From assembly GCA_001604275.1 (NCBI GenBank), contig LVBD01000068.1, positions 1-64,000 on the forward strand: a DNA stretch of 64,000 bases, read 5' to 3'. The notes beneath the pieces are model-generated. The model ran no database searches and was not told where the DNA came from. It was given only the letters and a program-made list of their open reading frames with translations. Shown here one piece after another: positions 8,707 to 24,381 of this stretch; the stretch's first letter is position 1, and each line of letters starts with the position of its first letter. The DNA comes from Spirochaetales bacterium Spiro_02 (GTDB lineage: Bacteria > Spirochaetota > Spirochaetia > Sphaerochaetales > Sphaerochaetaceae). A program made the translations under genes and the position numbers.

Positions 8707-8768
8707 ATATTCGAAAAGAAAAGGCATGGTAGCTTTTTTACTGAATGATCGTTGAGGAGCAATGCAGT

Positions 8769-9551
8769 ATGGTTGGTTCGGTCTATAATCCTCCATTTAC
8801 ACAGGATGGTCGCAAGACGCTCGTTTCGCGGAAGGAAATTCATCCCGACATGCTGATGGACATCAATGTCCACCAGCTGAAGCGTGGTGAAGTCAGAACG
8901 TTTCGTCGAGCAGGGGATGAGATGGCGCTGCTGCTGATCCAAGGCGACGTGACGTTCCGGTGGAACGGACAATCCGTGCGGGCGGTCCGTAAGGATTTCT
9001 TCAACGAGCGGCCTTGGTGTCTCCATGTTCCGAAAGACATGGAAATCATGGTCGAGGCTTCCGGACCGACTGAGTTGCTGGAACAGGCCACGGACAACGC
9101 AAGTTCTTTCTCTCCTTGCATGTATACTCCGGCGGATTGCGAGGACGTGGTAAGCGGCGCCGGATTGTACGGTGGGGAAGCCGTACGTACTGTCCGGACG
9201 ATCTTTGATCACGGAACCGCACCATACTCGAATTTCGTCTGCGGTGAAGTGTTGCATTCTCCCGGGCAGTGGTCGAGCTATATACCGCATCATCATCCGC
9301 AGCCTGAGGTCTATTACTATCGGTTCGACAAGCCGCAGGGGTTCGGAGCCGCGTTCGTCGGCGACGATGCCTTTAAGATCACCGATGGGGCCGTCAGTGC
9401 GATCACTCCGGGAAAGACGCACCCGCAGGCATGTGCTCCCGGCTACAGGATGTATTATGTCTGGATGATCAGGCATCTGCCCGGCGATCCATGGGATCGC
9501 ACACGGATCGATGACCCGGCCCATATATGGTTGCTTTCGGAGGGGAAGTAA
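8769..9551 (+). CDS. iolB: 5-deoxy-glucuronate isomerase
   Basis: IolB (260 aa) converts 5-deoxy-D-glucuronate to 2-deoxy-5-keto-D-gluconate in myo-inositol catabolism. The double cupin fold of the KduI/IolB family is recognisable from the metal-binding segment SYIPHHHPQPEVYYYRF followed by the later PGKTHPQACAPGYRMYYVW. The ATG at 8769 is chosen because GGAG lies about nine bases upstream. An in-frame ATG at 8745 would overlap that ribosome site. It is the first gene of the plus-strand arm of the inositol region. The substrate is made by IolD on the opposite arm. Confidence 0.94.
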   Translation: MVGSVYNPPFTQDGRKTLVSRKEIHPDMLMDINVHQLKRGEVRTFRRAGDEMALLLIQGDVTFRWNGQSVRAVRKDFFNERPWCLHVPKDMEIMVEASGPTELLEQATDNASSFSPCMYTPADCEDVVSGAGLYGGEAVRTVRTIFDHGTAPYSNFVCGEVLHSPGQWSSYIPHHHPQPEVYYYRFDKPQGFGAAFVGDDAFKITDGAVSAITPGKTHPQACAPGYRMYYVWMIRHLPGDPWDRTRIDDPAHIWLLSEGK

Positions 9552-9734: not shown

Positions 9735-9769
9735 AAGGAGGTCGAGACGTCTACTCGACAGTTTTCATG
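9735..9769 (+). promoter_or_regulatory. Ribosome site separated from its start codon by a hairpin
   Basis: The AAGGAG ribosome site (9735-9740) is about 26 bases from the ATG at 9767, too far for normal initiation, and no in-frame start codon lies between. The gap is filled by a perfect inverted repeat, GTCGAG (9741-9746) and CTCGAC (9754-9759). Folding it would bring the ribosome site to about seven bases from the ATG. Confidence 0.6.
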
Positions 9770-10825
9770 GAACCGATAGCGTCCCGTTCGATCCTCAACC
9801 GGTTTTCCGAACGTCTGGCCACCGAACCTCAACAGACGATCATTGAAGAAATCAAGCAGTTTTCGGAGGCAACGATTCATGCGGTCGCACAGCACGATGG
9901 TGGATGTGACGAAACCGACGCATTGCGAATCCTAGTCTTCAACATGGAGCGGGGCGTACATCTACAGGAAACAATCGATTTCCTCAAATATGTTCCGGAC
10001 TCCCGGCCGTTCGATGTAATTCTTGCCAATGAGTTGGATGATGGCTGCGAACGATCTGAAAATCGTGATGTAGCTCAGGAGATCGCCTGCGCATTGCACA
10101 TGGACTATGTATTCGGACTGGAATTCTTGGAACTGGTCGGGGACGGAAACGATAAAGGCTACCACGGCAATGCGGTTTTTTCACGTTGGCCGATTCTTTG
10201 GGCGAAGACGATCAGACTGCCTGAGCAGTACAACTGGTATTTCGACCGACAGCGCCGCATCGGCGGACGGAATGCCGTTCTGGCGAAGCTCGATATCGGC
10301 GAAAACGAGATCGGAGTAGCCTCGATCCATCTGGAAAACCGGACCACCGGGGTAGGGCGATCGCTCCAGATGCGTACAGTCCTCGATGCGGTTGAAAGGT
10401 ATTTCGGCGACCTACCGGTGGTTTTGGGCGGGGACTTCAATACGAATGGATTTGACGGAAGCGACATTGAGGAAATTTGTGCTTTGATCGACTCTCCGCA
10501 AGCATTCGCAGACAGGTCGCGCCAGCTGGAACGGTATGAACCTTTGCTCGGCCTCTGTTCCGACCGGGGCTATCTACGTTGCGGACCTTCGACTGATAGC
10601 CAACAGTACACACGGCGCAAGACGATTCCGAAAGGCGGTTTCATGCCGTTGCGTTTGGATTGGCTGTTTTCCCGGGGTTTTACAGTGGATTCGTACAGGA
10701 TCGCATCGACGTTGACCGAAGACTGCAAGTTCGCTCCGGAAGGAAGTGCTCTTGCACAGTTTAAAAAATCGGAATTGAGCGACCATAACGCAGTTTGGGC
10801 TCGATACAAGATACACAGCGCATAG
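9767..10825 (+). CDS. Endonuclease/exonuclease/phosphatase (EEP) family hydrolase
   Basis: A soluble protein (352 aa) of the EEP fold shared by DNase I-like nucleases, inositol polyphosphate 5-phosphatases and sphingomyelinases. All catalytic motifs are present in order: VFNMERG, ANELDDG (metal-binding Glu), YHGNAVFSR, SIHLENR (His), GGDFNTNG, LRLDWLFSRG and the terminal LSDHNAVWARY. No signal peptide is seen. It lies between iolB and a PfkB kinase and has its own LacI-type operator, so an inositol-phosphate or phosphoinositide-type phosphoester is a plausible substrate. The fold alone does not prove that. The only start in reach is the ATG at 9767, preceded by a hairpin-spaced ribosome site. 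Confidence 0.85.
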   Translation: MEPIASRSILNRFSERLATEPQQTIIEEIKQFSEATIHAVAQHDGGCDETDALRILVFNMERGVHLQETIDFLKYVPDSRPFDVILANELDDGCERSENRDVAQEIACALHMDYVFGLEFLELVGDGNDKGYHGNAVFSRWPILWAKTIRLPEQYNWYFDRQRRIGGRNAVLAKLDIGENEIGVASIHLENRTTGVGRSLQMRTVLDAVERYFGDLPVVLGGDFNTNGFDGSDIEEICALIDSPQAFADRSRQLERYEPLLGLCSDRGYLRCGPSTDSQQYTRRKTIPKGGFMPLRLDWLFSRGFTVDSYRIASTLTEDCKFAPEGSALAQFKKSELSDHNAVWARYKIHSA

Positions 10826-10846
10826 GGGAAATGCATGGAGGGTGAC

Positions 10847-11728
10847 ATGGGCAAGTTTGATCTCTGTATCCTGGGGCAACCGTCTTTGGATATTAATGTC
10901 GATTTCGGTGGCGATGTGGAACGTCGGGTAGGTGGGGCCGTCGTATATTCCGCATATGCGGCGTCTTCTGTCGGTTATTCCGTCGCGGTTCTTCCGAAAA
11001 TGAATCGGAACGAAATCGACATCGATAGAGTCTTCGCGGGAAGCTCCGGCATCACGATATTTCCGCTGGACAGTCCTCATAGCACTTCGATCGAGAATAT
11101 CTATCATTCTGCGGATCGTGAGAAACGGACCTGCAGAGCGATCGGGAGAATCGCCCCGTATCGTGTAGAAGAGATTCCTGATATCGATGCTCCAGTCTAT
11201 CATATCGCAGGCTTGATGCAAGGTGATCTGGGCAATGAAATCATAGCATTCGCATCTCGCAAAGCAGCGGCCGCAGTAGATGTTCAGTGTCTGCTCCGGT
11301 GTGTAGAAGGCGATTCCATGGTTTTTCATGATTGGAAGGAGAAAAAGGAATTCCTTCCGATGATCTCATTCCTCAAGACCGATGCTGCGGAAGCCGAAAT
11401 CATGACAGGAATGACGGATCGAACGGAAGCGGCGAAGCAACTGTATGATTGGGGAGCGAAGGAAGTGATGATCACCCACAACAGCGAGGCGCTGGTATAC
11501 GACGGAAGAACGATCCATACTTCGCCGCTGAAACCCAGGAATCTGCGCGGGAGAACCGGCCGAGGCGATACGATCTTCGCCACGTATCTGTGCGAACGAC
11601 TGACTTCCGATATTCCTGCTGCGTTGGAATTCTCCGCTGCGCTTGTTTCTCTGAAAATGGAGACTCCCGGACCGTTCAGAGGAACCAGAGCTGATGTCCA
11701 AGCATATGTATCGGAGTTCTATCGCTAG
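10847..11728 (+). CDS. PfkB-family carbohydrate kinase, substrate unknown
   Basis: A ribokinase/PfkB-superfamily kinase (293 aa). It shows the N-terminal LCILGQPSLDINVDFGG strand-turn and VGGAVVYSAYAAS. The C-terminal catalytic motif is GRTGRGDTIFATY, where the Asp is the catalytic base and the usual GAGD reads GRGD. It follows the EEP hydrolase closely in the inositol region. Normal inositol pathways need a PfkB-type kinase (IolC) for 2-deoxy-5-keto-D-gluconate. This protein is shorter than and poorly similar to Bacillus IolC as remembered, so it may be a replacement for it or an inositol or polyol kinase. The ATG at 10847 follows GGAGGG; an upstream in-frame ATG at 10835 is also possible. 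Confidence 0.82.
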   Translation: MGKFDLCILGQPSLDINVDFGGDVERRVGGAVVYSAYAASSVGYSVAVLPKMNRNEIDIDRVFAGSSGITIFPLDSPHSTSIENIYHSADREKRTCRAIGRIAPYRVEEIPDIDAPVYHIAGLMQGDLGNEIIAFASRKAAAAVDVQCLLRCVEGDSMVFHDWKEKKEFLPMISFLKTDAAEAEIMTGMTDRTEAAKQLYDWGAKEVMITHNSEALVYDGRTIHTSPLKPRNLRGRTGRGDTIFATYLCERLTSDIPAALEFSAALVSLKMETPGPFRGTRADVQAYVSEFYR

Positions 11729-11791: not shown

Positions 11792-11806
11792 GTGGGAGTT
11801 TTGCGT

Positions 11807-12799
11807 ATGATCAGCATCAGGGATATCGCGAAACGTGTCGGCATGTCCTCATCGACTGTCTCTCGTGTAGTCAACGGAAAGTCGAATGTCAACGATGAGA
11901 CGCGTGAGAAGATCCTGAAAGTCATTGAAGAATCCGGATATGTCCCCAATCGAGCCGCGCAGAACATGGTGATGAAGCGGAGCTTCACGATAGGAATCGT
12001 CATTCCTGCTATGTTCAACATGTTTCAACGACAATTGTTTTCCGTGATGGAGCGGGGACTGGAACTCTTCGGATACCGGACATTCTTCTTTTTCGTTGAG
12101 CCGAATGAGGCGAGCGAAGAAGCTTGCATCCGCGGAATGCAGGCGGAGAATCTCGATGGCGCCATCATCCTTCAGGATATTCAGGACGCTAGATTCTGCG
12201 AATATCTCCGTCGCAGCCGACTTCCCGTTGTATTCTCGACGATCGAATGCGAAGACTTTCCAACGGTTCATATCGACGATGAACGGGCGGCGATCGATGC
12301 CGTAGCCCATCTTGTCGAATTGGGGCATAGGGATATCGTCATGATCAGCAGCGGCGGTTTTACGTTCGGAAACATGAGAATGAAAGGATTCCTGCAGGCG
12401 CTCCGGTCTGCAGGGTTGCCGGCTGAAGAGGATCGCGTGCTATATACGGAGAGCTATACCGCCGAAGCCGGCATGCAGGGAATGAAGGAACTGCTCAGAA
12501 GAAGGAATGGTTTTTCCGCTGTATATGCAGCGACCGACGAGCTCGCCATCGGGGCGATGCGGGCTCTTGCCGATGCCGGAATCAGGGTTCCGGAAGATGT
12601 TTCCGTGATCGGGCTCGACGACATCGAGATATCAAGCTACATGATTCCCAGATTGACGACGATCCAGCAGCCATTGGATGAACTGGGAGAGAGGACTGTA
12701 TCGATGCTCCAGCAGTATATAGATGAAGACTATAGCGACGAAAAACGTATCATTCTTCCGCATCGGCTGGTTGTCAGGGATTCGACTGCATCTCGTTGA
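11807..12799 (+). CDS. LacI-family transcriptional regulator, probable inositol regulator
   Basis: A LacI-family repressor (330 aa). Residues 1-50 hold the DNA-binding helix-turn-helix and hinge helix (ISIRDIAKRVGMSSSTVSRVVNG). The rest is a periplasmic-binding-protein-like effector domain with VYAATDELAIGAMRAL and VSVIGLDDIEISSYMIPRLTTIQQP. The ATG at 11807 with GGGAG eight bases upstream is preferred to a GTG at 11792. The window holds four CG-centred operators of the LacI class before inositol genes and the sugar transporter, and this is the only LacI-family gene present. It is therefore the likely regulator, with inositol or an early metabolite as inducer. A run of eight T follows the stop codon. 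Confidence 0.93.
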   Translation: MISIRDIAKRVGMSSSTVSRVVNGKSNVNDETREKILKVIEESGYVPNRAAQNMVMKRSFTIGIVIPAMFNMFQRQLFSVMERGLELFGYRTFFFFVEPNEASEEACIRGMQAENLDGAIILQDIQDARFCEYLRRSRLPVVFSTIECEDFPTVHIDDERAAIDAVAHLVELGHRDIVMISSGGFTFGNMRMKGFLQALRSAGLPAEEDRVLYTESYTAEAGMQGMKELLRRRNGFSAVYAATDELAIGAMRALADAGIRVPEDVSVIGLDDIEISSYMIPRLTTIQQPLDELGERTVSMLQQYIDEDYSDEKRIILPHRLVVRDSTASR

Positions 12800-12813: not shown

Positions 12814-14103
12814 TCATGCATCGGGAGATGTGGGGATTGTCACGCATCCGTCGGGTAGCACGATGACAGTCGGCCGCGCGATTCCTTGCCGATCCGCCAG
12901 CGCTTTCGCAAAGCGAAATGCATCATCCAATGTTTTCTGCTTTTCGATGAACATCGATGAAAGAACCTCGTCGGATAGTTCCGAGACGGCTACGATCGTC
13001 GCCCGTTGTGCGACTTCCGCCATCTTCGCGGCCTTGTGGAATCCAAGTAGGTATTCCTTCCTGATTCTGGCCAACGCATCCGACGGGCTGTCCGCCTGTG
13101 CAAGTAGTCTAGCGTAGGTCGTGTCGCCGATGCCGTCTCTGCAGGAGGAAACGAGGATTAGCGTTCCACCGTCTTTCAATGCCAACGCTCCGTTATCGAT
13201 CGCTTTTTGTGATTGATATAGGTCGATATCCATCGGGAATTTCGCTACGGACACGACGATATCGGCTCGAGCAGGAATCGATACGCAGAAAATCCTTCGG
13301 GCATATGCCACTGCCTGCGAAAAAGAGGCCACCAGATCGCCGCTAGTCGCCGCTGCAACCTTCTGCTCCTTGTCGAGGACCGTCATCAAGGCGAATACCG
13401 GAACGTCGATATAGCGCAAGGCGTCCATCATATCCTCATGCACGGGGTTTCCTTCCAGCGCAAGCGATCTGGCGCGGGGAGAGAGCGCCTGCCGATGGTT
13501 CGCCTCGATCGTCGAAAAACCTGCGATACCAGGCAGGAACGCCTTTCTCCCCCCCGTGAATCCAGCGAAGTAATGCGGTTCCACGCTCCCTGTGACAATG
13601 ATACGATCCACTTCGAATACATGCTTGTTCAAAGTGATCGGTGTACCGTTTCTTGTCGTTCCCAGCGTCGCCAATTGTGCGGGATCTCGGGAATCGTGAT
13701 ACGTGCAATGCGGACGGAGTTGCCGATACATGGGGCCGAGTATCTGTTCGTACTCGGCTTCCGTCGGTGCTCGATGTGCTCCTGTCGCCACCAGCAGGAT
13801 AATGTCGTGGAGTGCGACATATCGTTCGCAGACCGGAAGCAACGCAGAAAGCATAGCGGACGTCGGAGTAGGGCGAGTAGCGTCGTTGATGATGATGAGA
13901 ATTCGGCTGGCACCGTTGAGAAATTCGTCCAACGAAAGCGCATCGCACATGGTTCCTACGCATGGCTGCGACAATGCAAGGTTCAGCGTGTCCGTAACGG
14001 AACCGGCGCATTCGAATGGGTTCGGTTCAGCGACGGCGAGCAACTGTTCGTCCGGTATTTCAAGCGACAGACGTTCCGAAAGATATGGAATCTCAAGTTT
14101 CAT
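12814..14103 (-). CDS. larA: LarA-family nickel-pincer 2-hydroxyacid racemase/epimerase
   Basis: A protein (429 aa) of the lactate racemase LarA family. It carries DATRPTP (residues 74-80), TGAHR (His110), and EPHYFAGFTGGRKAFLPG with His177 and Lys187. His203 lies in EANHRQ. These match the catalytic histidines, the cofactor-linked lysine and the nickel-ligand histidine of characterised LarA. It would interconvert 2-hydroxyacid stereoisomers using the nickel-pincer nucleotide, whose synthesis genes larBCE are not in the window. Last gene of the minus-strand inositol arm, so its substrate may not be lactate. The ATG at 14103 follows GGAG. Confidence 0.88.
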   Translation of the reverse strand: MKLEIPYLSERLSLEIPDEQLLAVAEPNPFECAGSVTDTLNLALSQPCVGTMCDALSLDEFLNGASRILIIINDATRPTPTSAMLSALLPVCERYVALHDIILLVATGAHRAPTEAEYEQILGPMYRQLRPHCTYHDSRDPAQLATLGTTRNGTPITLNKHVFEVDRIIVTGSVEPHYFAGFTGGRKAFLPGIAGFSTIEANHRQALSPRARSLALEGNPVHEDMMDALRYIDVPVFALMTVLDKEQKVAAATSGDLVASFSQAVAYARRIFCVSIPARADIVVSVAKFPMDIDLYQSQKAIDNGALALKDGGTLILVSSCRDGIGDTTYARLLAQADSPSDALARIRKEYLLGFHKAAKMAEVAQRATIVAVSELSDEVLSSMFIEKQKTLDDAFRFAKALADRQGIARPTVIVLPDGCVTIPTSPDA

Positions 14104-14129
14104 ATCCACTCCATGTTGTGTGACAAGGT

Positions 14130-14146
14130 TCCCGGAATATCCGGGA
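14130..14146 (-). other. Small intercistronic hairpin between pgk and larA
   Basis: A perfect 7-bp inverted repeat, TCCCGGA-ATA-TCCGGGA, lies in the 56-base gap between the phosphoglycerate kinase and LarA genes. It has no T run, so it may stabilise the upstream mRNA rather than terminate it. Confidence 0.45.
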
Positions 14147-14159
14147 GCCTCGGTAAGAC

Positions 14160-15458
14160 TTAGGTATCCCGCTTTCCGACAGGAACCTGAAGATCGTGTT
14201 CGAATGCCCGTTCCATTGCTTCAATAAGCGGTAGCTTCTTTCCAGCAAGGAATCTCACCATCGCTCCTCCGGCGGTACAGACATACGAATACTTCGAAAG
14301 ATCGGTGAACTTCGTCGCCGCGTTGATCGTATCTCCTCCGCCGACGACAGTGTACCCGGGGGCGTTCGCGATCGCATTCCATATTTCTCGTGTGCCATCC
14401 GCCCAGCGCTCGTCCTCGTACATTCCCGCGGGACCATTGACGAAGATGGACCCGGCTGCCGATATCCGCTCCTTGAACAGTTCTATCGTTCCATGTCCGA
14501 TATCCGGATACAACGTCGTATCCGAAAAAACGGTAGGGAGATCTGCCACTTCGACTTCCGCCCGCTTTCCGTCCTGTTCATAGGCAAGATCGATCGGAAG
14601 CAGATATCTGTCTCCCCATTTCGTCAGCAGATCCTTGGCTTCGGGAAGGAACGCAAGCAGATCCCTGTCGGAGAGCAAGTGTTCCTCGCGCTTTCCGATA
14701 GCGACGCCGCGGGCGAGCAGCATGAGGATTCCCGTCAGACCGCCGGGAAGAATCAAATCGGCCGCACCGTCTTCAAGAACTTTCCGCATCATGCCGAAAG
14801 CATCGGATATCTTCGCACCGCCCAGGACGAATATACAGGGACGTCGTGGGTGATCCATGACTGATTTCAATGCTGTGTATTCCTGTACCAATTGCAACCC
14901 GCCGGCTGTCGGCAGCAGTTCCTGGAACGCAACCATCGATGGCGCGTTCCGATGCGCGGCGGCGAAAGCATCGTTGACATAGATATCCGCCAGCGGTGCG
15001 AGCGATCGAACCAGCCATGTATCGAGCATCTGCCGGGGAGTCAGTTTCACCTCTTTCTCGAAACTTGAAACTTCTTCCGTAAGATACCGCAGATTTCCGA
15101 GAACAATGGCTTCTCCGTTCCGAAGTTCCTTGACCCGGCGTCGAGCTTCAGGACCGCAGACATCGTCGACATACGACACGTTCCGACCTGTCATGGACGC
15201 GAGCAACCGCGCGTGTTCCTCCAACGGCATCAAGTTCTGGTAGTCCAGAGTATCACCTTGGTGGGCGATGATCGCAACCTTCGCACCTGCGTCGAGCAAC
15301 TTGAGCAACGTCGGAACCGTCTTCTCGATCCTGTTCGTATTCACGATATGTTTCGTGTGAATATCGATCGGTGAATTGATGTCAGGTCTGAAGATGACTG
15401 TCCTGCCGAAGAAATCGAACGCATCCAACCCCCGAATCTTTATGCGTGCTCCTTCCAT
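14160..15458 (-). CDS. pgk: Phosphoglycerate kinase, archaeal type
   Basis: A complete phosphoglycerate kinase (432 aa) that looks archaeal rather than bacterial. Archaeal-style blocks are TVIFRPDINSPID, VAIIAHQGDTLD with LEEHARLLA, and LAPLADIYVNDAFAAAHRNAPS. The C-terminal blocks are VLGGAKISDAF, IFVNGPAGMYE, VVGGGDTINAA and the AGGAMVRFLAGKKLPLIEAM tail. Bacterial enzymes have VRVDFNVP and SHLGRP at the first two sites. It would make ATP and a phosphoglycerate, or a related acid, from an acyl phosphate. It overlaps the archaeal-type GAPDH gene by 19 bases, implying coupled expression and sequential reactions. The start at 15458 gives the normal N-terminus; reading further upstream yields only sequence antisense in character. 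Confidence 0.92.
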   Translation of the reverse strand: MEGARIKIRGLDAFDFFGRTVIFRPDINSPIDIHTKHIVNTNRIEKTVPTLLKLLDAGAKVAIIAHQGDTLDYQNLMPLEEHARLLASMTGRNVSYVDDVCGPEARRRVKELRNGEAIVLGNLRYLTEEVSSFEKEVKLTPRQMLDTWLVRSLAPLADIYVNDAFAAAHRNAPSMVAFQELLPTAGGLQLVQEYTALKSVMDHPRRPCIFVLGGAKISDAFGMMRKVLEDGAADLILPGGLTGILMLLARGVAIGKREEHLLSDRDLLAFLPEAKDLLTKWGDRYLLPIDLAYEQDGKRAEVEVADLPTVFSDTTLYPDIGHGTIELFKERISAAGSIFVNGPAGMYEDERWADGTREIWNAIANAPGYTVVGGGDTINAATKFTDLSKYSYVCTAGGAMVRFLAGKKLPLIEAMERAFEHDLQVPVGKRDT

Positions 15459-16477
15459 TTCCCTATCCCCAGATATTTGTTCGTCAGAGACGTTGCTTCG
15501 ATCCTGTCGGTTTGCATCTGCATCGCCGCCCGTATCGCATCCATGTTCTCGGGTATGACCACGGCTTCCTGAGGAATGTTGATGGCGAACATCAAGTCTT
15601 TGCCGCTCTTGACCACCGAGTCGCTCCATAATGCGATCTCGTACATGTCCCCGCGTGGATTGCCCAGATCGCGGGCATACCGGAACAGGCTGGCATTGCC
15701 TAGGAACCCTTCTGCGAGCGATACGATCCTGATCCGCGGATGCTCACCGAAATACGCAAGCGCCTCTTCTGTCGACAGTTCCTGCTTCGTCGTCATTACG
15801 ATCGTGATAATATGTCCGTGCGTAACCGGAGTATGGACGAGGATTCCGGTTGCGTCCACATGTGGCATGATCGTCATCAAGTCAAGGGCCTGATGGCTTG
15901 GAGCATGTTCGATCTGCAACGCATTGGTAAGCCCGCGGTGGTAGTCTCCGGGATCCGCGACACGCCTGATGATCGTGATGGCGACTTTCTCCACGCCGAC
16001 TTTCCTGTCGATGCAATCCACAGCCCTGATCAGACCCGTCGTATTGCATGAAGTCAGCTTCAGGAACTGGGCTCCGAGGCCTTTTTCATAATTCGCGTAC
16101 CCATGGAAGAAAACATCCGCGACACTATTCTTTTCTCCGCCTTGGAAGATTGCTTTCTTATCATACGTTGCATACAATTCCTTGTTTCTGGCGCCTACTC
16201 CGGCACTGGTGGCGTCAAGCATGATATCGACTTTCTGCACCAGATCTTCCAACGTTCCTGAAACCGGGATGCCCGCATCAGCGAGATCCTTTCGTTTCTC
16301 CGGGAGAGCTGTATACAGATCGTACGGCATACCGCGTTCCTTCAACGCACGGACGGAAAGGGTAGGGGCTACATCGGCGACACCGACCAGTTCCATGTCT
16401 CCCTGAAGCGCCACTCCGTCGGCAAGACGCTGACCGATGACTCCATACCCCGCTACGCCAACTTTCACTTTTTTCAT
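15440..16477 (-). CDS. gap: Type II (archaeal-type) glyceraldehyde-3-phosphate dehydrogenase
   Basis: A phosphorylating GAPDH (345 aa) of the archaeal class II type. It has an N-terminal Rossmann fold (VGVAGYGVIGQRLADG, residues 6-21) and the catalytic Cys144 in LTSCNTTGLIRAVD, the archaeal signature in place of the bacterial SCTTNC. Later come PSHQALDLMTIMPHVD and THGHIITIVM. It would oxidise glyceraldehyde-3-phosphate, or a related aldehyde phosphate, to the acyl phosphate used by the neighbouring kinase. It sits between iolE and the archaeal-type pgk in the inositol operon. Ribosome site GGAGGAGAAGG precedes the ATG at 16477. Its presence here suggests horizontal acquisition of the pair and a role beyond ordinary glycolysis. 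The latter is inference. Confidence 0.93.
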   Translation of the reverse strand: MKKVKVGVAGYGVIGQRLADGVALQGDMELVGVADVAPTLSVRALKERGMPYDLYTALPEKRKDLADAGIPVSGTLEDLVQKVDIMLDATSAGVGARNKELYATYDKKAIFQGGEKNSVADVFFHGYANYEKGLGAQFLKLTSCNTTGLIRAVDCIDRKVGVEKVAITIIRRVADPGDYHRGLTNALQIEHAPSHQALDLMTIMPHVDATGILVHTPVTHGHIITIVMTTKQELSTEEALAYFGEHPRIRIVSLAEGFLGNASLFRYARDLGNPRGDMYEIALWSDSVVKSGKDLMFAINIPQEAVVIPENMDAIRAAMQMQTDRIEATSLTNKYLGIGKWKEHA

Positions 16478-16507: not shown

Positions 16508-17398
16508 CTAGATTCCTGCGGTTTCCCTGATGTATGCACGAGCTTTCATGGCATATTCCAGCGGATTCGCTTTGGCCGGATCCTGTTCCGCTTCTACGAC
16601 CCACCAGCCCTCATAACCGGCTTTCTTCAGTTCGTCGAAAATCGGCCGGAAGTCAATGCATCCATCGCCGGGAACCGTAAATACGCCTTCCTTGACCGCT
16701 TTGAGGAACGACCATCTGCCGGCGACGGCCTTTTCCCTGATCACAGGACGCATGTCCTTCAGATGCACATGTCGTATGCGTGGCATCCACTTCTTGAGCA
16801 CCCTGATGTGATCTTCGCCTGAAAAGACCAGATGTCCGGTGTCGTACAGGAGGCCGAGCAACTCGCTGTCGGTGTTTTCCATCAGTCGATCGATCTCAGC
16901 TTCGGTCTGCACTCCGGTGCCCATATGATGGTGATATGTCAGCTTCATTCCTTTTTCGGCGGCACGCTCGCCCAGCCGGTTCAGTCCTTCGCACAATCGT
17001 TTCCATTCCGCATCGGTGAACGACGGCTTTGCTTCGAACACTGGAAGATCCTGGCGTCCTTGAATGGAGTGCCCCTGTTCCGCGGCGCCGATCACTCGAG
17101 CTCCTACAGCATGAAGAAAATCGCGATGCTTGATGAATTGTGCTTCGACCTCCTCATACGGTCGCGTCGTCAGATACGAACTGAACCATGCGTTGCAGAT
17201 CGTCAGTCCACGCAACGCAAGCGCCTTGTTCAGGACCGCGGGATCTTTCGGATATTTGTTGCCGACCTCGCTGCCTTTGAATCCTGCCAAAGCCATTTCA
17301 CTGACACATTGTTCGAACGGAATCTCACCTCCGAGTTCCGGGAGATCGTCGTTCGTCCAACCGATAGGAGCTATCGCGAGTCTGATCGTTTCTTTCAT
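16508..17398 (-). CDS. iolE: Inosose dehydratase
   Basis: IolE (296 aa) dehydrates 2-keto-myo-inositol to a trihydroxycyclohexane-1,2-dione, the second step of myo-inositol breakdown. It is a xylose-isomerase-like TIM barrel with the family signature [20 protein letters not shown] at the N-terminus, then [37 protein letters not shown] and the C-terminal [10 protein letters not shown], which together supply the metal ligands. The ATG at 17398 is about nine bases after AAGGA; an ATG at 17407 overlaps that site. It follows iolD directly and precedes the type II GAPDH gene. Confidence 0.95.
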
Positions 17399-17416
17399 TA
17401 TTTCCATCCTTCCGAC

Positions 17417-19276
17417 TTAGAATTGCCTGGCTTTGGACACTTCCTCGGCCATGCTCTTCGCAGCATCCTCGACTTGTTTGTTCGTCGATACCTGCGCGGT
17501 TCCGACACGCCACCATGATTCATAGCCCTGGGTCATGGACTTGGGGCTGGTCTTGACATCGATTACGACCGGACCGCGTTCTTCAAGCGCTTGGCGTACG
17601 GCGGCGCCGAGCTCATTGATCGTTGTCGCTCGCAGTCCTTTCGCCCCCCAGCTTTCGGCGTTCTTCGCATAATCCACTACGACGGACCGTCCATCAAGCC
17701 GGCCACTCGAGGAATCCCGATGCTTCCATTCGTTTCCGAAATGGACGATTCCCTGGCTGTGCTGAAGATTATCGATGCACTGGAATCCAGCGTTGTCCAA
17801 TACGATGACAATGATCTTCTTCTCTTCCTGAACAGCTGTCAGCAGTTCCGTATGAAGCATCGTATATGCGCCGTCACCGACGATCGCAACGACATCCCGT
17901 CCGGGGCAGGCGAGCTTCGAGCCAAGCGAAGCGGCGATTTCATACCCCATGCAGGAAAAACCATATTCCATGTGGTATGTTCCCGTCACTCGGGTCCGCC
18001 ATACCCGCTGCATGTCGCTAGGAATCGAACCGGAACCTGATACGACTATCGCATCTTCAGGAAGCAACCTGTCGTTGAGTTCTCCCAATACGCGTACCTG
18101 GGACAGCGCGACGGAATCTTCTTCGGCATAGAGCCTGTCCACTTCCGCGTCCCATTCGGCTTTCGCTTTCGCGATTTCATCTCCCCAGGACGACTTGTAG
18201 CCAGAGGCGGACTCGCAGAGAGCCTTGAGCATGAGCTTCGCGTCCGCGATGATCGGTTCCGCATTCATCTTGTATGCATCGAACGGTGCGATGTTGATTC
18301 CGACGATCCGGGCTTTCGGATTCTGGAACAGCCATTTCGAACATGTCGTAAAGTCTCCGAGCCGAGTACCTACTGCCAGAATCAGATCGGCTTCTTTCGC
18401 AAGCTTGTTCGCAGCGAGACTCCCTGTATTGCCGATCCCGGACAGATTGAACGGGTTATCCCATCGGACGGTCCCTTTCCCCGCCTGGGTCTCGCCGAAC
18501 GGAATATGGTATTTGGCGCAGAATTCCTCAAGCTCCTTTCCCGCATCGGAATATCGCACGCCGCCGCCGCAGATGACATATGGCCTTTCAGCCTGCCTGA
18601 GCATTGAGACCGTCCGATCGATCTGCCCCGAAGTAGGGATGCGCCGTTCGATATGGTGCACTCGTTTTCCAAAGAACTCTTCGGGATAGTCGTATGCTTC
18701 TCCCTGGACATCCTGGGGAAGCGCTACTGTCACGGCACCGGTCTCGGCGGGATCGGTAAGTACTCTGAACGCATTGATCATCGCTGTCATCAACTGCTCG
18801 GGTCGGTTCACTCGATCCCAATACTTGCTGACTGCGCGGAATGCATCGTTTGCCGTGCACGTATAGTCCGTAGGAATCTCGACTTGCTGAAGGACCGGAT
18901 CCGGTTGCCTGCAAGCGAACGCATCGCCTGGAAGAAACAGGACCGGAATCCTATTGACGGTAGCAGTTCCAGCGGCGGTGACCATGTTCAAAGCGCCAGG
19001 GCCGATGGAACTCGTCACCGCCATCATTTTCCGTCGATCGTTCTGCTTCGCATACCCGATCGCGGCATGGGCTCCACCCTGTTCGTTCTTCGCTTGGTAG
19101 AAACGAAGCGAATGCCCCTCGGCGGCTAGCGCTTCGCCTAGTCCGACGACAACTCCGTGCCCGAAAATTCCAAAGACTCCTGTGACGAATTTCGTTTCCT
19201 CTCCGTCAACTTCAAGATACTGATTGTCCAGAAAACGAACCAAAGCCTGTGCCATGGTCAGGCGTATTGTTCCCAT
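17417..19276 (-). CDS. iolD: 3D-(3,5/4)-trihydroxycyclohexane-1,2-dione hydrolase
   Basis: IolD (619 aa) is a thiamine-diphosphate enzyme that opens the ring of the IolE product to give 5-deoxy-glucuronate. It has the three domains of the acetolactate-synthase fold. The N-terminal domain has GIFGHGVVVGLGEAL and the catalytic-Glu segment YQAKNEQGGAHAAIGYAK. The middle domain has LILAVGTRLGDFTT. The C-terminal domain has the ThDP motif VAIVGDGAYTMLHTELLTAVQEE with the following VLDNAGFQCIDN. The ATG at 19276 has GAGGGA about seven bases upstream. It lies 167 bases after iolG and upstream of iolE in the same transcript. A strong hairpin occupies the iolG-iolD gap. Confidence 0.96.
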   Translation of the reverse strand: MGTIRLTMAQALVRFLDNQYLEVDGEETKFVTGVFGIFGHGVVVGLGEALAAEGHSLRFYQAKNEQGGAHAAIGYAKQNDRRKMMAVTSSIGPGALNMVTAAGTATVNRIPVLFLPGDAFACRQPDPVLQQVEIPTDYTCTANDAFRAVSKYWDRVNRPEQLMTAMINAFRVLTDPAETGAVTVALPQDVQGEAYDYPEEFFGKRVHHIERRIPTSGQIDRTVSMLRQAERPYVICGGGVRYSDAGKELEEFCAKYHIPFGETQAGKGTVRWDNPFNLSGIGNTGSLAANKLAKEADLILAVGTRLGDFTTCSKWLFQNPKARIVGINIAPFDAYKMNAEPIIADAKLMLKALCESASGYKSSWGDEIAKAKAEWDAEVDRLYAEEDSVALSQVRVLGELNDRLLPEDAIVVSGSGSIPSDMQRVWRTRVTGTYHMEYGFSCMGYEIAASLGSKLACPGRDVVAIVGDGAYTMLHTELLTAVQEEKKIIVIVLDNAGFQCIDNLQHSQGIVHFGNEWKHRDSSSGRLDGRSVVVDYAKNAESWGAKGLRATTINELGAAVRQALEERGPVVIDVKTSPKSMTQGYESWWRVGTAQVSTNKQVEDAAKSMAEEVSKARQF

Positions 19277-19389
19277 CTTCACTCCCTCTTAACATTCCCT
19301 TCAATGAAACGCCGCAAAGAAAACGTCGGACGAACAGAATCGACGACTCCTTTCCCGGCTCTTGTCACTCATGCCATATCGTATGTCGT

Positions 19390-19443: not shown

Positions 19444-20475
19444 TCATTTGTGCGATGAACGGATTTCTTCGATCGTTACGGGTCGCTTCTCCTTCAGCGA
19501 TCTGGTTGCGGCAAGCGCCGCATACATGTTCTCCAGCCCATCCTCGCCGGTTACCGCCGGAGCTGTACCTTTCGCGATGCAATCGATGAACGATACCATT
19601 TCGTCGATGAACGCTTTTTTATATCGTTCGAGGAAAAAGTACAGTGGTTTTTCGCCGGTCACGCCGTCCTGTCCGAACATCCTGACGGTATTGGGGAGGT
19701 CATTGTCTGCCATCGCCGCGCCTTTCGAGCCGAAGACTTCGACGCGCTGGTCGTAGCCGTAGATCGCTTTCCTGGAATTGTCGATGACGCCGACGGCTCC
19801 GTTCGCGAACTTGAGTGTGACGATCGCCGTATCGACATCGCCCGCCTTTCCGATCTCAGGATCTACGAGAACCGAACCGACGGCATAGACTTCGGTGATT
19901 TCCGATCCGGCCTGGAATCTCGCCATGTCGAAGTCATGGATCATCATGTCGAGGAAGATTCCTCCTGACACCGCGACATAGGAAGCCGGCGGCGGGGCAG
20001 GGTCCCTGGAGGTGATCTTGACGATCTGGACCGCTCCGATGTCTCCGTCGATCGCATGCTGGCGGATCCTGCCGAAATTATGGTCGAACCGACGGTTGAA
20101 GCCGATCTGGAGCTTCACGTTCGCATCTTTTGCCGCCTTGAGCGCCGCTTTGACCTTTGCGACGGACAGGTCGATCGGTTTCTCACAGAAGATATGCTTG
20201 CCGGCCTGCGCCGCCATGATGACGAAATCGGCATGCGTATCGGTCGAGCTACAGATGACGACCGCGTCGATCGACGGATCTTTCATCATCTGCTTCGGAT
20301 CCTTCATGGTCGTTTCGATGCCGAGTCCATGCGCCCATGCTTCCATCTGCGGGTTCATGTTCACATCCGCCAAGGCGACTATTTTCGCCTGCGGTATCTG
20401 ATACGATATGTTCTCCGCATGGATCTTTCCAATTCTGCCGGCACCGATAATGCCGAGCCGTATAGAATCAGCCAT
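19444..20475 (-). CDS. iolG: myo-Inositol 2-dehydrogenase
   Basis: IolG (343 aa) oxidises myo-inositol to 2-keto-myo-inositol with NAD. It belongs to the Gfo/Idh/MocA family. The N-terminal Rossmann motif is RLGIIGAGRIGKIHAEN, the catalytic-lysine motif FCEKPIDLS lies near residue 97, then IGFNRRFDHNF. The substrate-site segment GGIFLDMMIHDFDMARF contains the conserved Asp and His. The ATG at 20475 follows AAGGAGGAGG. It is transcribed from a well-formed promoter overlapped downstream by a LacI-type operator. First enzyme of the minus-strand inositol arm and downstream of the transporter genes on the same strand. Confidence 0.95.
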   Translation of the reverse strand: MADSIRLGIIGAGRIGKIHAENISYQIPQAKIVALADVNMNPQMEAWAHGLGIETTMKDPKQMMKDPSIDAVVICSSTDTHADFVIMAAQAGKHIFCEKPIDLSVAKVKAALKAAKDANVKLQIGFNRRFDHNFGRIRQHAIDGDIGAVQIVKITSRDPAPPPASYVAVSGGIFLDMMIHDFDMARFQAGSEITEVYAVGSVLVDPEIGKAGDVDTAIVTLKFANGAVGVIDNSRKAIYGYDQRVEVFGSKGAAMADNDLPNTVRMFGQDGVTGEKPLYFFLERYKKAFIDEMVSFIDCIAKGTAPAVTGEDGLENMYAALAATRSLKEKRPVTIEEIRSSHK

Positions 20476-20526
20476 TGTATCCTCCTCCTTGTGAAAGGCC
20501 TCCTGAGTCTTCTCTTGCAACATTTG

Positions 20527-20541
20527 TTGCAAACGTTTTCA
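20527..20541 (-). promoter_or_regulatory. LacI-family operator in the iolG promoter
   Basis: TTGCAAACGTTTTCA, read on the plus strand, lies directly downstream of the predicted -10 box, over the first transcribed bases. This position is classic for repression. It is flanked by an outer inverted repeat CATTTG (20521-20526) and CAAATG (20547-20552). Confidence 0.75.
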
Positions 20542-20697: not shown

Positions 20698-21711
20698 TCA
20701 GACCGCTGCCGACTTCCTCGCCTGGGCTTCCATCTTGTTCCGAAGCACATCGATCGCGACAGCGAGAATGATGACCAGACCGATGATGATGTACTGTATG
20801 TCGTTGGATGCGCTCATCAGGTTCAGTCCGTTTCTGATGACACCCATCAGCAACGCGCCGATCATCGTCCCCCAGATGGTGCCTTTTCCACCGGTGAAGG
20901 ACGCACCGCCGATGATGCAGGCTGCGATCGCGTCCGTATCATACGAGATTCCCGCATTAGCGTTCGCCGATGCCAGCCGTCCCACGAGCAGGACTCCGGC
21001 CAAGCCGCACATGAACCCTGAAAGGGAGTATACGAATGTCAGCACTCGCTTGGAAGGGATGCCGGAAAGCCTGGACGCCTCGGGGTTTCCACCCACGCAA
21101 TAGATCTGTCTGCCAAGGGCGGTCCTGGTGAGAAATATATGGAACAGCGCGAACACGATCAGGACAAGCAGGAAGCTGACGGGGAACCCCGCGCCACGTC
21201 CGTCGAAATTCCCGATCGTATATTTACCGAACCACATCAGAGAGTCAACACCCTTGTTGGTGAAGCCGATCGTCTTCGAACCGGTAATGACCAGCGCGAT
21301 GCCGAGCAGCACGTTCTTCATGCCGAGCGTGGAGACGAACGGGTGGGGGAGGTCCAGCCTGGTGAGCAGCGTTCCGTTTATGAATCCGGCGAGGGTGCTG
21401 ATTCCGATTCCCGCAAGCGCGAGGACCACCGGATTGGTGATTCCGAATTTCTGGACCAGGACGCCGATCAGGCAGGCCGCGAGCACTGAATTCGAACCTA
21501 CCGACAGATCGATGCCGGCTGTGATCAAACATACGAGCATGCCGGAGGCGATCAGACAATTGATCGATACCTGCTTCAGGATGTTCATCTGGTTGCTGAT
21601 TCGAAGGAATTTGTCGGGAACGATGATCGCGAATATCGCAAACAAGATCACCAGCGCGATCAATACGGTGAGCTTCTGTACAAGCTCTTTTGCCTTGCTC
21701 TTCTTTTTCAT
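20698..21711 (-). CDS. Sugar ABC transporter permease (RbsC type)
   Basis: An inner-membrane permease (337 aa) of the ribose/xylose/inositol CUT2 family with about eight to ten hydrophobic helices. Family motifs are ITAGIDLSVGSNSVLAACLIG, ALAGIGISTLAGFINGTLL, RQIYCVGGNPEASRLSGI and AACIIGGASFTGGKGTIWGTMIGALLMGVIRNGLNLM. Only one permease gene is present, so it probably forms a homodimer. It follows the ATPase gene almost without a gap. The association with iolGDE and shared operators points to myo-inositol as substrate, although homologues carry several sugars. Confidence 0.93.
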   Translation of the reverse strand: MKKKSKAKELVQKLTVLIALVILFAIFAIIVPDKFLRISNQMNILKQVSINCLIASGMLVCLITAGIDLSVGSNSVLAACLIGVLVQKFGITNPVVLALAGIGISTLAGFINGTLLTRLDLPHPFVSTLGMKNVLLGIALVITGSKTIGFTNKGVDSLMWFGKYTIGNFDGRGAGFPVSFLLVLIVFALFHIFLTRTALGRQIYCVGGNPEASRLSGIPSKRVLTFVYSLSGFMCGLAGVLLVGRLASANANAGISYDTDAIAACIIGGASFTGGKGTIWGTMIGALLMGVIRNGLNLMSASNDIQYIIIGLVIILAVAIDVLRNKMEAQARKSAAV

Positions 21712-21713
21712 AA

Positions 21714-23216
21714 TTACTCCAGCCTTCCTCCCCAGGCAGCTTTCATGATGCTTTCAGAATTGAAATGCTCGGAATCACGGTCGATGGTCGCCATGACTTT
21801 TCCCCCGCGCATGACCACTACGCGGTCGCTCATGGCAAGGATTTCCGGCAGTTCCGACGAGACCATGATGACGCATTTCCCAGCGCCTACCAGTTCGTTC
21901 ATGATCCGATAGACTTCGATCTTCGCCCCGACGTCGATTCCTCTGGTAGGCTCATCGAAGATGAAGATGTCCGCATCCGTATTGACCCATTTCCCGATGA
22001 CGACTTTCTGTTGGTTTCCGCCGGACAGCTGGGCGGTAACCTCGCTGAGAGAAGGAGTCTTGATCCGCAACGACGTCACATTGTCCCGTCCCGTCTCCTC
22101 GATCCGCATTTTGTTGAGGAATGGTCCACGGGAAAACTCCTTCATGCTCGCCAGCACGAGATTCGTCCTGACGTCTTCGGAAAGGATCAGTCCTTGCCCT
22201 TTCCTGTCTTCCGTCAGGAACGCGATCCTGTTCTTGATCGCGTGCTTCGGCGACTTGAAGTCCACCTTCTCGCCTTTGATGTAGATTTCTCCGCCATCGA
22301 GTCTGTCGGCGCCGAATATCGCACGCATTGTCTCAGTTCTTCCGGCTCCGACCAGTCCGGCGAAGCCTGTGATCTGGCCTGCATGGGCCTTGAAGCTGAC
22401 ATCCCTGAGCACCCCTGCGATGTTGAGGCTCCGGACTTCCAACCAGACGTCGCCCTTTGCACCGAACTCTTTCGGATACAGGTTGTCCAGTGTACGGCCG
22501 ACCATCGCGTTGATCAGGTCGTCTTCGGTCAGTTCGGACGTGTCTTTCGTCAGAATATGCTCTCCGTCACGCATGACGGTACATCGGTCGCATATTTCGA
22601 AAATCTCGTCCAGCTTATGGGATACGAACAGGATCGCGACACCTTTCGACTTCAGCCGCTTGATCGCTTCCATCAATTGCTCGATCTCGTCCTTACCCAA
22701 GGACGAAGTCGGTTCGTCCATGATGATCAGCTTTGCGTCGATGGAAATCGCTTTCGCAATCTCGACCATCTGTTGCTGTCCGACTCCGAGCTTGCCGGCT
22801 TCCATGCGAACGTCGATCTCCGGATGTCCGAGCGACTCAAGGGCTTCCGCAGCTTGCCGGTGCATTCTGTCATAGTCGAGCAGCACGCCTTTGCCGATCG
22901 TCCTCCCCATGAATATGTTGTCGGTCACCGACAACTGCTTCACGATATTCAGTTCCTGATATACGCAGGCAATCCCGGCCTCCCGCGACTGGACGGGATT
23001 ATGGAACGCAACCTTCTTTCCTTCGACAAAAATATCGCCTTCTTCCGGTTTGTGGACGCCTGTAAGCACTTTGATCAACGTGGATTTGCCTGCACCGTTT
23101 TCACCGATCAGGCCATGGATCTCCCCGGGGAGAATCCCGATCGACATGTTCTTCAGGGCGACGACGCCAGGAAAGCGCTTCGTGATATTCCTGAGTTCTA
23201 CTACATACTCGCTCAT
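21714..23216 (-). CDS. Sugar ABC transporter ATPase (RbsA type, two nucleotide-binding domains)
   Basis: The ATPase (500 aa) has two fused ATP-binding cassettes, as usual for CUT2 sugar importers. The first has Walker A IGENGAGKSTLIKVL, signature GVGQQQMVEIAKA and Walker B LIIMDEPTSSL. The second has a degenerate P-loop (GFAGLVGAGRTETMRAIFG), signature LSGGNQQKVVIGKWV and IFIFDEPTRGIDVGAK. An intact first site and degenerate second P-loop are normal for this family. The ATG at 23216 with TGAGG upstream gives the standard N-terminus. It lies between the binding-protein and permease genes. Confidence 0.95.
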   Translation of the reverse strand: MSEYVVELRNITKRFPGVVALKNMSIGILPGEIHGLIGENGAGKSTLIKVLTGVHKPEEGDIFVEGKKVAFHNPVQSREAGIACVYQELNIVKQLSVTDNIFMGRTIGKGVLLDYDRMHRQAAEALESLGHPEIDVRMEAGKLGVGQQQMVEIAKAISIDAKLIIMDEPTSSLGKDEIEQLMEAIKRLKSKGVAILFVSHKLDEIFEICDRCTVMRDGEHILTKDTSELTEDDLINAMVGRTLDNLYPKEFGAKGDVWLEVRSLNIAGVLRDVSFKAHAGQITGFAGLVGAGRTETMRAIFGADRLDGGEIYIKGEKVDFKSPKHAIKNRIAFLTEDRKGQGLILSEDVRTNLVLASMKEFSRGPFLNKMRIEETGRDNVTSLRIKTPSLSEVTAQLSGGNQQKVVIGKWVNTDADIFIFDEPTRGIDVGAKIEVYRIMNELVGAGKCVIMVSSELPEILAMSDRVVVMRGGKVMATIDRDSEHFNSESIMKAAWGGRLE

Positions 23217-23281
23217 GCGAATCGCCTCATCGACTGTTCGGACGAACTGCGCCTGAACTGAGCGCCCACTCGTCCAGAAAT

Positions 23282-23318
23282 GCCGGAACCTGGCGGACAC
23301 ATTCTGTCAGGTTCCGGC
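23282..23318 (-). other. Intercistronic hairpin between binding-protein and ATPase genes
   Basis: GCCGGAACCTG (23282-23292) and CAGGTTCCGGC (23308-23318) form a perfect 11-bp stem with a 15-base loop in the 145-base gap after the binding-protein gene. No T run follows. Such structures often protect the upstream message so that the binding protein is made in excess over the membrane parts. Confidence 0.65.
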
Positions 23319-23361
23319 GACTTGCTGTGTCACATAGCGGCAGGGAATGCCGCTGATGAGA

Positions 23362-24348
23362 TCATTTCTTACCCAGCATCGATGCAAGGCTGTCAAGATA
23401 CGCCTGACCGTTCTCCTTTGTCACGACCTGCACCGGGGCGTTGATGACGGCTTCGACGGCCTGTCCTTGTATCGCCTGATACGCCGCTTCTACTGCCTGG
23501 TATCCCATTGCGTATGGCTGTTGCGCGACCGATGCGGCGATATCGCCGGAAAGTACCAGCTCGACAGCGGACTTGTTCCCATCGAAACCAACGATGACGA
23601 TACCCGTGATCCCTGCCGACTGGCAGGCGTTCAAGGCGCCGATCGCAGTGTCGTCGTTATGGCAGAGGACAAGATCGATCTTGTCGGGGTAGGAATTCAG
23701 AAGATCCTCCATGACTTTCGTCGCTCCGTCGGTAGTGTTCTGACCGGACAGCGAGGCGAGGATGTTGATTCCGCTTTCGGCGCAGGCGGCGCTATAGCCT
23801 TCACGACGCATGTTCGATGTACTGTCGCCTTCCTGACCATAGATGATGACTGCATTGGCGCCTTTGCCCACTTGCTTTGCGGCCCATAGGCCACCCTGCT
23901 TCGCCGCATCTACGTTCGAAGTGCCGACGAAACTGGTCTGACCCGCGATCCCGACGTTCGTATCGACGGAGAGGACGGGGATCTTTGCGTCGATGGCCGA
24001 CTGCAAAGCCGCGCTCGCCGCGGAGGCGTCGTTCGGAGCGACGACAATGGCGTCGCATCCCGCCCCGAGCTGCTGCTCGATCATGGCGACCTGGCCTTCT
24101 ATATCGCTTTCCGAACCGGGCCCCACGACATGCACGATGATTCCCAGATCCTTTGCCGCTGCGTCGCAGCCTGCCTTGACATAGTTCCAATATTCGGATG
24201 CCAATGTCTTGAGAACGACGGCCACTTCGATGTCCGAAGCGCCTTTCGCGGAAGTCTTGGATTCGCTCCCTCCCTGGGCGAACAAGCTTCCGGATGCCAG
24301 TAGTACGGCCAATAGCACGATCGCAATCCTAGAAACAGACTTCTTCAT
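23362..24348 (-). CDS. Periplasmic sugar-binding protein of the ABC transporter
   Basis: A type I periplasmic binding protein (328 aa) of the ribose/inositol group. Residues 1-25 form a signal peptide ending in SLFA before QGGSES, with no lipobox Cys, so it should be a soluble periplasmic protein. Family motifs are LASEYWNYVKAGCDAAAKDLG, IVVAPNDASAASAALQSAIDAKIPVLSVDTNV, CHNDDTAIGALNA and IVIVGFDGNKSAVELV. The ATG at 24348 is preceded by AAGGAGG. It is first in the transporter operon and directly behind a promoter with a LacI-type operator, so it is probably induced together with the inositol enzymes. Confidence 0.94.
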   Translation of the reverse strand: MKKSVSRIAIVLLAVLLASGSLFAQGGSESKTSAKGASDIEVAVVLKTLASEYWNYVKAGCDAAAKDLGIIVHVVGPGSESDIEGQVAMIEQQLGAGCDAIVVAPNDASAASAALQSAIDAKIPVLSVDTNVGIAGQTSFVGTSNVDAAKQGGLWAAKQVGKGANAVIIYGQEGDSTSNMRREGYSAACAESGINILASLSGQNTTDGATKVMEDLLNSYPDKIDLVLCHNDDTAIGALNACQSAGITGIVIVGFDGNKSAVELVLSGDIAASVAQQPYAMGYQAVEAAYQAIQGQAVEAVINAPVQVVTKENGQAYLDSLASMLGKK

Positions 24349-24366
24349 ATTTTCGTTTCCTCCTTT

Positions 24367-24381
24367 TGAAAACGTTTGCAA
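24367..24381 (-). promoter_or_regulatory. LacI-family operator in the transporter promoter
   Basis: TGAAAACGTTTGCAA on the plus strand is the exact reverse complement of the site before iolG. It lies just downstream of the predicted -10 box and about 18 bases before the binding-protein start. Confidence 0.75.

Follow-up and report, generated by a model that had tools for sequence, protein, structure and literature searches.

A candidate transketolase-dependent inositol pathway built around GAPDH and phosphoglycerate kinase homologues in Spirochaetota and other bacteria

Introduction

Plant matter commonly contains inositol, as do guts, where it comes from phytate. In the classical myo-inositol pathway (IolG-E-D-B-C-J-A) it is converted to 2-deoxy-5-keto-D-gluconate (DKG), which is phosphorylated by IolC and cleaved by IolJ, and the products include DHAP and malonate semialdehyde. 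Sulfofructose, for its part, is cleaved in three ways. In the sulfoglycolytic transketolase (sulfo-TK) pathway, the transketolase SqwGH acts on a non-phosphorylated acidic ketose, with GAP as the acceptor (PMC12890257).

Ordinary phosphoglycerate kinase (PGK) binds the 3-phosphate of its substrate through His62, Arg65, Arg122, Arg170 and Lys219, while Asp23 and Asn25 hold the 2-hydroxyl. In the LarA family, the published malate-racemase signature is His/Lys (or Gln/Lys) at the equivalents of W358/T359, and tartrate is a further substrate of malate racemases. Neither transketolase nor malate nor iolC comes up in a 2025 review of gut inositol metabolism. The initial annotation of the locus described here suggested that it could be a module not yet described, and this agrees with the open-access literature, in which no paper on the route proposed below turned up when inositol was searched for together with transketolase, malate semialdehyde, malate racemase or type II GAPDH.

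The inositol gene cluster

The window analysed is a 64,000-nucleotide stretch of Spirochaetales bacterium Spiro_02 (contig LVBD01000068.1, positions 1 to 64,000). Its minus strand carries, in this order, iolG (inositol 2-dehydrogenase, 19444-20532; TIGR04380 484 bits, cut-off 355), iolD (trihydroxycyclohexane-1,2-dione hydrolase, 17417-19282; TIGR04377 920 bits, cut-off 715) and iolE (myo-inosose-2 dehydratase, 16508-17407; TIGR04379 430 bits, cut-off 290), then an overlapping GAPDH-PGK pair and a LarA gene. The type II GAPDH homologue (GAPII; 15440-16477, 345 aa) is a putative phosphorylating (R)-malate semialdehyde dehydrogenase, and the archaeal-like PGK homologue (PGKII; 14160-15458, with its ATG at 15458) a putative D-malyl-phosphate kinase; their reading frames overlap by 19 nt. 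The LarA homologue (12814-14109), with Lar_N and LarA_C domains and the malate-racemase signature GFHKAA, is a candidate D-malate racemase. All three genes lie on the minus strand, after iolE, at the place given by the initial annotation.

Also on the minus strand is a sugar ABC importer (20698-24381), named from its sequence and presumed to take up inositol, comprising a permease (20698-21711), an ATPase (21714-23300) and a binding protein (23362-24381). The plus strand carries a divergent iolB-like 5-deoxy-glucuronate isomerase gene (8745-9551), which matches the KduI/IolB Pfam family at 171 bits and TIGR04378 at 91.6 bits, under the cut-off of 205, and a LacI-family regulator (11792-12799) that presumably regulates the cluster.

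The GAPDH and PGK homologues

The GAPDH scored 415 bits against NF003251 (cut-off 185) and 310 bits against TIGR01546 (cut-off 233), and has the SCNTTG catalytic motif. The PGK matched PF00162 at 330 bits, and among solved structures it is closest to PGK of the archaeon Pyrococcus horikoshii (2cun, 264 bits; the next scored 193). Profiles, coordinates and nearest structure therefore bear out the earlier description of overlapping genes for an archaeal-type GAPDH and PGK. The pair shares its family, fold-level similarity and catalytic Cys motif with archaeal type II GAPDH and PGK, but differs in forming a separate bacterial clade, in its cofactor site and in the 3-phosphate site of the kinase. 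Lys35, the archaeal cofactor-site Lys, is Asp in 68 of 69 GAPII sequences. In PGKII (n=68), two of the five 3-phosphate ligands are lost, with Arg65 replaced by Asp (64/68) or Ser (4/68) and Lys219 by Ala (68/68); His62, Arg122, Arg170 and the other substrate residues are kept, and Asp23 and Asn25 are invariant. Since Pyrococcus PGK likewise lacks Arg65 and Lys219 (with Lys and Ser there), only Asp65 is distinctive.

More than 400 GAPII relatives were found, chiefly in Spirochaetota, Clostridia and Chloroflexota, and relatives in different phyla are 73-87% identical to the window protein. Bacterial GAPII forms its own well-supported branch in a tree that has long branches and only three archaeal rows. 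The initial annotation had suggested a transferred catabolic module: a conserved module is indeed present in other genomes, but the tree, beyond this separate bacterial clade, gives no support for a recent transfer from archaea.

A further difference from archaeal type II GAPDH and PGK as such is that the window genome also has an ordinary copy of each gene on contig C41, scoring 547 bits for pgk and 131 bits for gap. The possibility raised at the outset, that the window pair is the sole glycolytic gap and pgk of the genome, is thereby ruled out.

Conservation of the module and exclusion of IolC

The conserved gene order anticipated by the initial annotation was found in other genomes. GAPDH and PGK genes are adjacent or overlapping in all 76 related loci in which both were detected (median gap -3 bp, maximum 284 bp), so their pairing is more than chance. 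Of the 39 related loci that contain two or more iol genes, 38 have PGKII, 31 LarA, 25 transketolase and 13 malic enzyme, and none has IolC. The complete operon of Clostridium magnum reads malic enzyme-GAPII-PGKII-TktN-TktC-iolB-D-E-G-LarA, without iolC, and the module occurs in other cultured strains such as Sphaerochaeta halotolerans. A second, ordinary PGK is encoded in 23/23 module genomes. No iol genes lie within the sequence covered at 41 of 80 GAPII-PGKII loci.

The window genome encodes its transketolase and malic enzyme on other contigs, outside the operon. Its only transketolase is a split one (L086, contig C27); two further loci found by the transketolase domain (L085 and L087) were rejected, as their sequences look like 2-oxoacid dehydrogenase E1 proteins. 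Its malic enzyme is 75% identical to one from a module locus.

The best IolC score in the window genome was 201 bits, under the cut-off of 300. Two kinases were considered as IolC and rejected: the PfkB protein of the window (10835-11728) has no TIGR04382 match, and another kinase (L088) is below the cut-off and adjoins a gene read as KDPG aldolase. IolC exceeded its cut-off in just 3 of 50 module genomes. Among 29 iolD-positive Clostridia genomes, 13 have IolC, 13 have GAPII, none has both and three have neither (p = 1.1e-5, in a test that ignores genome relatedness). The substrate-level phosphorylation step proposed initially as an addition to the inositol operon is supported as a step; the pair, together with transketolase, appears to replace IolC and IolJ and not merely to add to them.

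LarA and malate

The His/Lys malate-racemase signature is present in 40 of 40 complete LarA proteins. By alignment, the window LarA shares its catalytic residues and this substrate signature with the malate racemase LarAH6/Mar2 (6d6z), but differs from it in scoring under the LarAH6 model cut-off (393 bits, cut-off 500) and in sitting in an inositol operon. The initial annotation suggested that LarA may set the stereochemistry of a hydroxyacid end product; its residues instead fit a malate racemase that would convert D-malate to L-malate. A PF01969 search of the window genome for the NPN cofactor gene LarC gave no match. At one locus (L065), a tartrate/D-malate dehydrogenase-family gene (TIGR02089, over the cut-off) directly follows TktN-TktC-GAPII-PGKII; homologues of this gene are present at two others (L033 and L079), and LarA was not seen at any of these three loci.

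A proposed route from inositol to pyruvate

The module genes probably belong to a transketolase-dependent inositol pathway that ends with the conversion of malate to pyruvate. We base this on gene content, the exclusion of IolC, the signature residues and the ordinary gap and pgk elsewhere in the genome, and infer from these all chemistry after IolB. Independent support comes from the LarA signature, from the two lost PGK ligands and from the tartrate/D-malate dehydrogenase-family gene at the three loci where LarA was not seen. IolG, IolE, IolD and IolB would convert myo-inositol to DKG as in the usual route. DKG, HOCH2-CO-CHOH-CHOH-CH2-COO(-), differs from D-xylulose-5-phosphate in carrying CH2-COO(-) where the latter has CH2-OPO3, and could serve directly as the ketose donor for transketolase, without IolC phosphorylation or IolJ cleavage. 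A two-carbon unit would pass to a sugar-phosphate acceptor, leaving (R)-malate semialdehyde, the carboxylate analogue of D-glyceraldehyde-3-phosphate. GAPII would then form D-malyl phosphate from this aldehyde, NAD+ and phosphate, PGKII would transfer the phosphate to ADP to give D-malate and ATP, LarA would yield L-malate, and malic enzyme pyruvate. The aldehyde phosphate first suggested as the substrate of the pair is thus probably its carboxylate analogue instead. Some observations weigh against this route. GAPII scores as an ordinary type II GAPDH with its catalytic residues kept, PGKII retains Arg122 and Arg170 at the phosphate site, and Pyrococcus PGK too lacks Arg65 and Lys219; LarC was not found in the window genome, whose operon has neither transketolase nor malic enzyme, and some GAPII-PGKII loci show no iol genes in the sequence covered.

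Uptake and the steps to DKG are common to this module and the classical pathway. Unlike the latter, the module has no IolC, DKG would presumably be split by transketolase without phosphorylation, and the products would be malate instead of malonate semialdehyde, with ATP gained at the acyl phosphate. The transketolase is split here as in the sulfo-TK pathway, where its action on a non-phosphorylated sulfosugar ketose sets a precedent; unlike in that pathway, the substrate would come from inositol, and the aldehyde would be oxidised through GAPDH and PGK homologues with a gain of ATP, not isomerised and cleaved again.

GAPII and PGKII might instead be inositol-induced glycolytic isozymes, oxidising glyceraldehyde-3-phosphate from DHAP or a pentose phosphate cycle and boosting lower glycolysis. 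The two proteins do fall in the type II GAPDH and PGK families with catalytic residues kept, and ordinary inositol catabolism produces DHAP. We nevertheless consider this unlikely, as it leaves unexplained that GAPII and IolC exclude each other, that LarA is of the malate-racemase type and accompanied by malic enzyme, that PGKII has Asp65, and that a second set of enzymes is retained despite an ordinary gap and pgk. It is quite improbable that the pair acts in several pathways on a related four-carbon aldehyde acid (e.g. of a tartrate or threonate series), with inositol as only one feeder. The pair does also occur beside genes for an IolO-like epimerase, an IolN-like hydrolase, an HpcH-type aldolase and an AGE-type isomerase, and both the substrate range of malate racemases and the name of TIGR02089 include tartrate; yet malic enzyme recurs in the module, and in iol operons, provided that DKG is the transketolase substrate, its structure means that the aldehyde must be malate semialdehyde. 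Cleavage of DKG by an unphosphorylated aldolase or transaldolase could also give malonate semialdehyde, which GAPII and PGKII would turn, through malonyl phosphate, into malonate plus ATP. This would involve a known classical product and let GAPII replace the semialdehyde dehydrogenase IolA, but is highly improbable. It accounts for neither the transketolase nor the malate-racemase-type LarA, the malic enzyme or the tartrate/D-malate dehydrogenase-type gene; none of the recurring neighbour genes was named as an aldolase; and the 2-hydroxyl that the invariant Asp23/Asn25 hold is absent from malonate semialdehyde.

Implications

Returning to the transketolase-dependent pathway, it seems reasonably probable that GAPDH gave rise to a phosphorylating (R)-malate semialdehyde dehydrogenase and PGK to a D-malyl-phosphate kinase, two activities of which no earlier account was found, and that these enzymes and transketolase make up an ATP-conserving inositol pathway widespread among anaerobes, with a transaldolase-type inositol route beside it, so that DKG, like sulfofructose, would be cleaved in three ways (kinase/aldolase, transketolase and transaldolase). 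If so, no DKG kinase would be needed and ATP would be gained at the acyl-phosphate step, so that many Spirochaetota, Clostridia and Chloroflexota would be expected to differ in energy yield and products (malate, pyruvate) from what is now predicted. The names GAPDH and PGK would be wrong for hundreds of genes, and glycolytic enzymes would have been reused on the carboxylate analogue of their own sugar phosphate.

Gene content and neighbourhood of the locus

The three genes at 12814-16477 of the window do encode the GAPDH, PGK and LarA recognised in the initial annotation: a type II GAPDH homologue (GAPII; 15440-16477, minus strand), an archaeal-like PGK homologue (PGKII; 14160-15458, minus strand) overlapping it by 19 nt, and LarA (12814-14109, minus strand). 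They extend a same-strand run of a sugar ABC importer, iolG, iolD and iolE. The plus strand of the locus carries a divergent iolB, followed by a gene of the endonuclease/exonuclease/phosphatase family and then a weak PfkB kinase (9767-11728), neither of which is conserved across the majority of related loci, and a LacI regulator.

In a single scan across bacterial and archaeal genomes, a relative of the GAPDH was encoded in 421 stretches; the best 80 of these show 73-88% identity and come chiefly from Spirochaetota, Clostridia and Chloroflexota, plus a few others (e.g. Atribacterota). The gene order, for which a search in other genomes had been advised, is kept for the pair, PGK adjoining GAPDH in 76 of the 76 loci with both detected (median gap -3 bp). 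Clustering of neighbour genes revealed what the window alone hides, with two recurring neighbours together making up a split transketolase (N half, TktN; C half, TktC) and another being a malic enzyme. In Clostridium magnum, a single operon holds, in this order, an importer, malic enzyme, GAPII, PGKII, TktN, TktC, iolB, iolD, iolE, iolG and LarA, and its gene list, as read, contains no IolC, aldolase or semialdehyde dehydrogenase.

A probable transketolase-type inositol route

The initial annotation had proposed substrate-level phosphorylation on glyceraldehyde-3-phosphate or another aldehyde phosphate. We revise the substrates: the GAPDH and PGK homologues probably work on malate semialdehyde and malyl phosphate, within an undescribed transketolase-type inositol pathway. 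Every step after IolB is predicted from established chemistry. The IolB product, 2-deoxy-5-keto-D-gluconate (DKG), presents the same D-threo ketose end as xylulose-5-phosphate, with CH2-COO(-) replacing CH2-OPO3. Transketolase chemistry on DKG would yield OHC-CHOH-CH2-COO(-), or (R)-malate semialdehyde. This analogue of D-glyceraldehyde-3-phosphate would be the substrate of the GAPDH-like enzyme, yielding D-malyl phosphate, from which the PGK-like enzyme would make D-malate and ATP. That the product would be the D isomer accounts for the presence of a racemase ahead of malic enzyme. Precedent for the DKG step comes from the sulfo-TK pathway, whose transketolase acts on a non-phosphorylated acidic ketose (PMC12890257).

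Several features fit this mechanism. The His/Lys pair tied to malate racemases in the LarA family (PMC11770544, PMC7583248) is present in all 40 complete members, window included. The PGKs (n = 68) keep Asp23, Asn25, Arg38, His62, Arg122 and Arg170, while Arg65 and Lys219, ligands of the 3-phosphate in PGKs of the ordinary kind (PMC7729029, PMC4106842), are replaced, the former by Asp (64/68) or Ser (4/68) and the latter by Ala (68/68). As the Pyrococcus PGK is also altered at both positions (Lys and Ser), what sets the present PGKs apart is the acidic Asp65. Residue 35 of GAPII is Asp in place of Lys, suggesting that the cofactor is NAD and not NADP. Three loci without LarA within the stretch examined (that of L033 stops shortly past iolG, and LarA may lie farther on) carry a member of the tartrate/D-malate dehydrogenase family, which includes D-malate dehydrogenase; at L065 this gene exceeds the TIGR02089 cut-off and directly follows TktN, TktC, GAPII and PGKII.

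Four PGKIIs (L059, L070, L078, L079) carry HQGSD where the rest have HQGDT, and possibly take a different substrate. At locus L113 (7776-9987; genome G049), a divergent GAPII homologue (42%) without the catalytic Cys of SCNTTG adjoins a PGKII that keeps HQGDT, with a split transketolase close by; this GAPII homologue is possibly an inactive or repurposed copy.

Relationship to IolC and to the rest of the genome

Classically, DKG is phosphorylated by IolC and then split by IolJ. Among 393 Clostridia genomes, 29 have iolD; 13 of these have IolC over the cut-off, 13 have type II GAPDH, none has both and three have neither (Fisher p = 1.1e-5, ignoring kinship of genomes). In the regions read around iolD and GAPII, IolC of the 13 IolC genomes sits with the iol genes and the module genes are absent, save one weak 35% TktN match; PGKII is present in 13/13 GAPII genomes, with transketolase, LarA or malic enzyme close to iolD or to GAPII. 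Only 3 of 50 genomes with the module have IolC over the cut-off. The corresponding regions of the three genomes with neither were also read. Two of these genomes were listed gene by gene (L128 and L117; the third is G162, L129), and the transaldolase and aldehyde dehydrogenase in their iol clusters (L128, 4673-8086; L117, 7862-13339) suggest a further variant, possibly a transaldolase-type inositol route.

The window genome, 99.7% complete with 2.61 Mb in 74 contigs, has no IolC over the cut-off (best match 201 bits vs 300); that best match adjoins a gene read as KDPG aldolase and was rejected as IolC. Ordinary gap and pgk, whose presence the initial annotation had asked about, lie together on contig C41. 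The sole transketolase is split and lies on C27, and 14 related iol loci likewise lack transketolase within the stretch examined. Malic enzyme is on C16, with 75% identity to the one adjoining LarA in L076. LarC (PF01969) was not found in this 99.7% complete genome, although LarA is encoded.

Origin and possible wider use of the pair

The initial annotation had considered a transferred archaeal-type block. In a tree with only three archaeal GAPDHs, the bacterial GAPDHs form one well-supported clade with phyla partly mixed inside, which speaks against recent transfer from archaea into the window genome.

Fewer than two iol genes were found in 41 of the 80 loci within the stretch examined. In eight Clostridia loci (L052, L054, L055, L056, L058, L063, L080, L083), unrelated genes flank GAPII-PGKII and no iol genes lie within ~19 kb; ordinary PGK is also present in those of these genomes tested. 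Others of the 41 hold different sugar genes beside the pair: an IolO-like epimerase (L059, 5671-6507), or an IolN-like hydrolase, HpcH-type aldolase and AGE-type isomerase (L084, 3379-8908). At L032 (7148-8764) the neighbour is a ribulokinase-family gene. All of these could mark additional routes that feed the step in question. With fewer than two iol genes in many loci and other sugar genes in some, the GAPII-PGKII pair may thus serve more than one upstream route.
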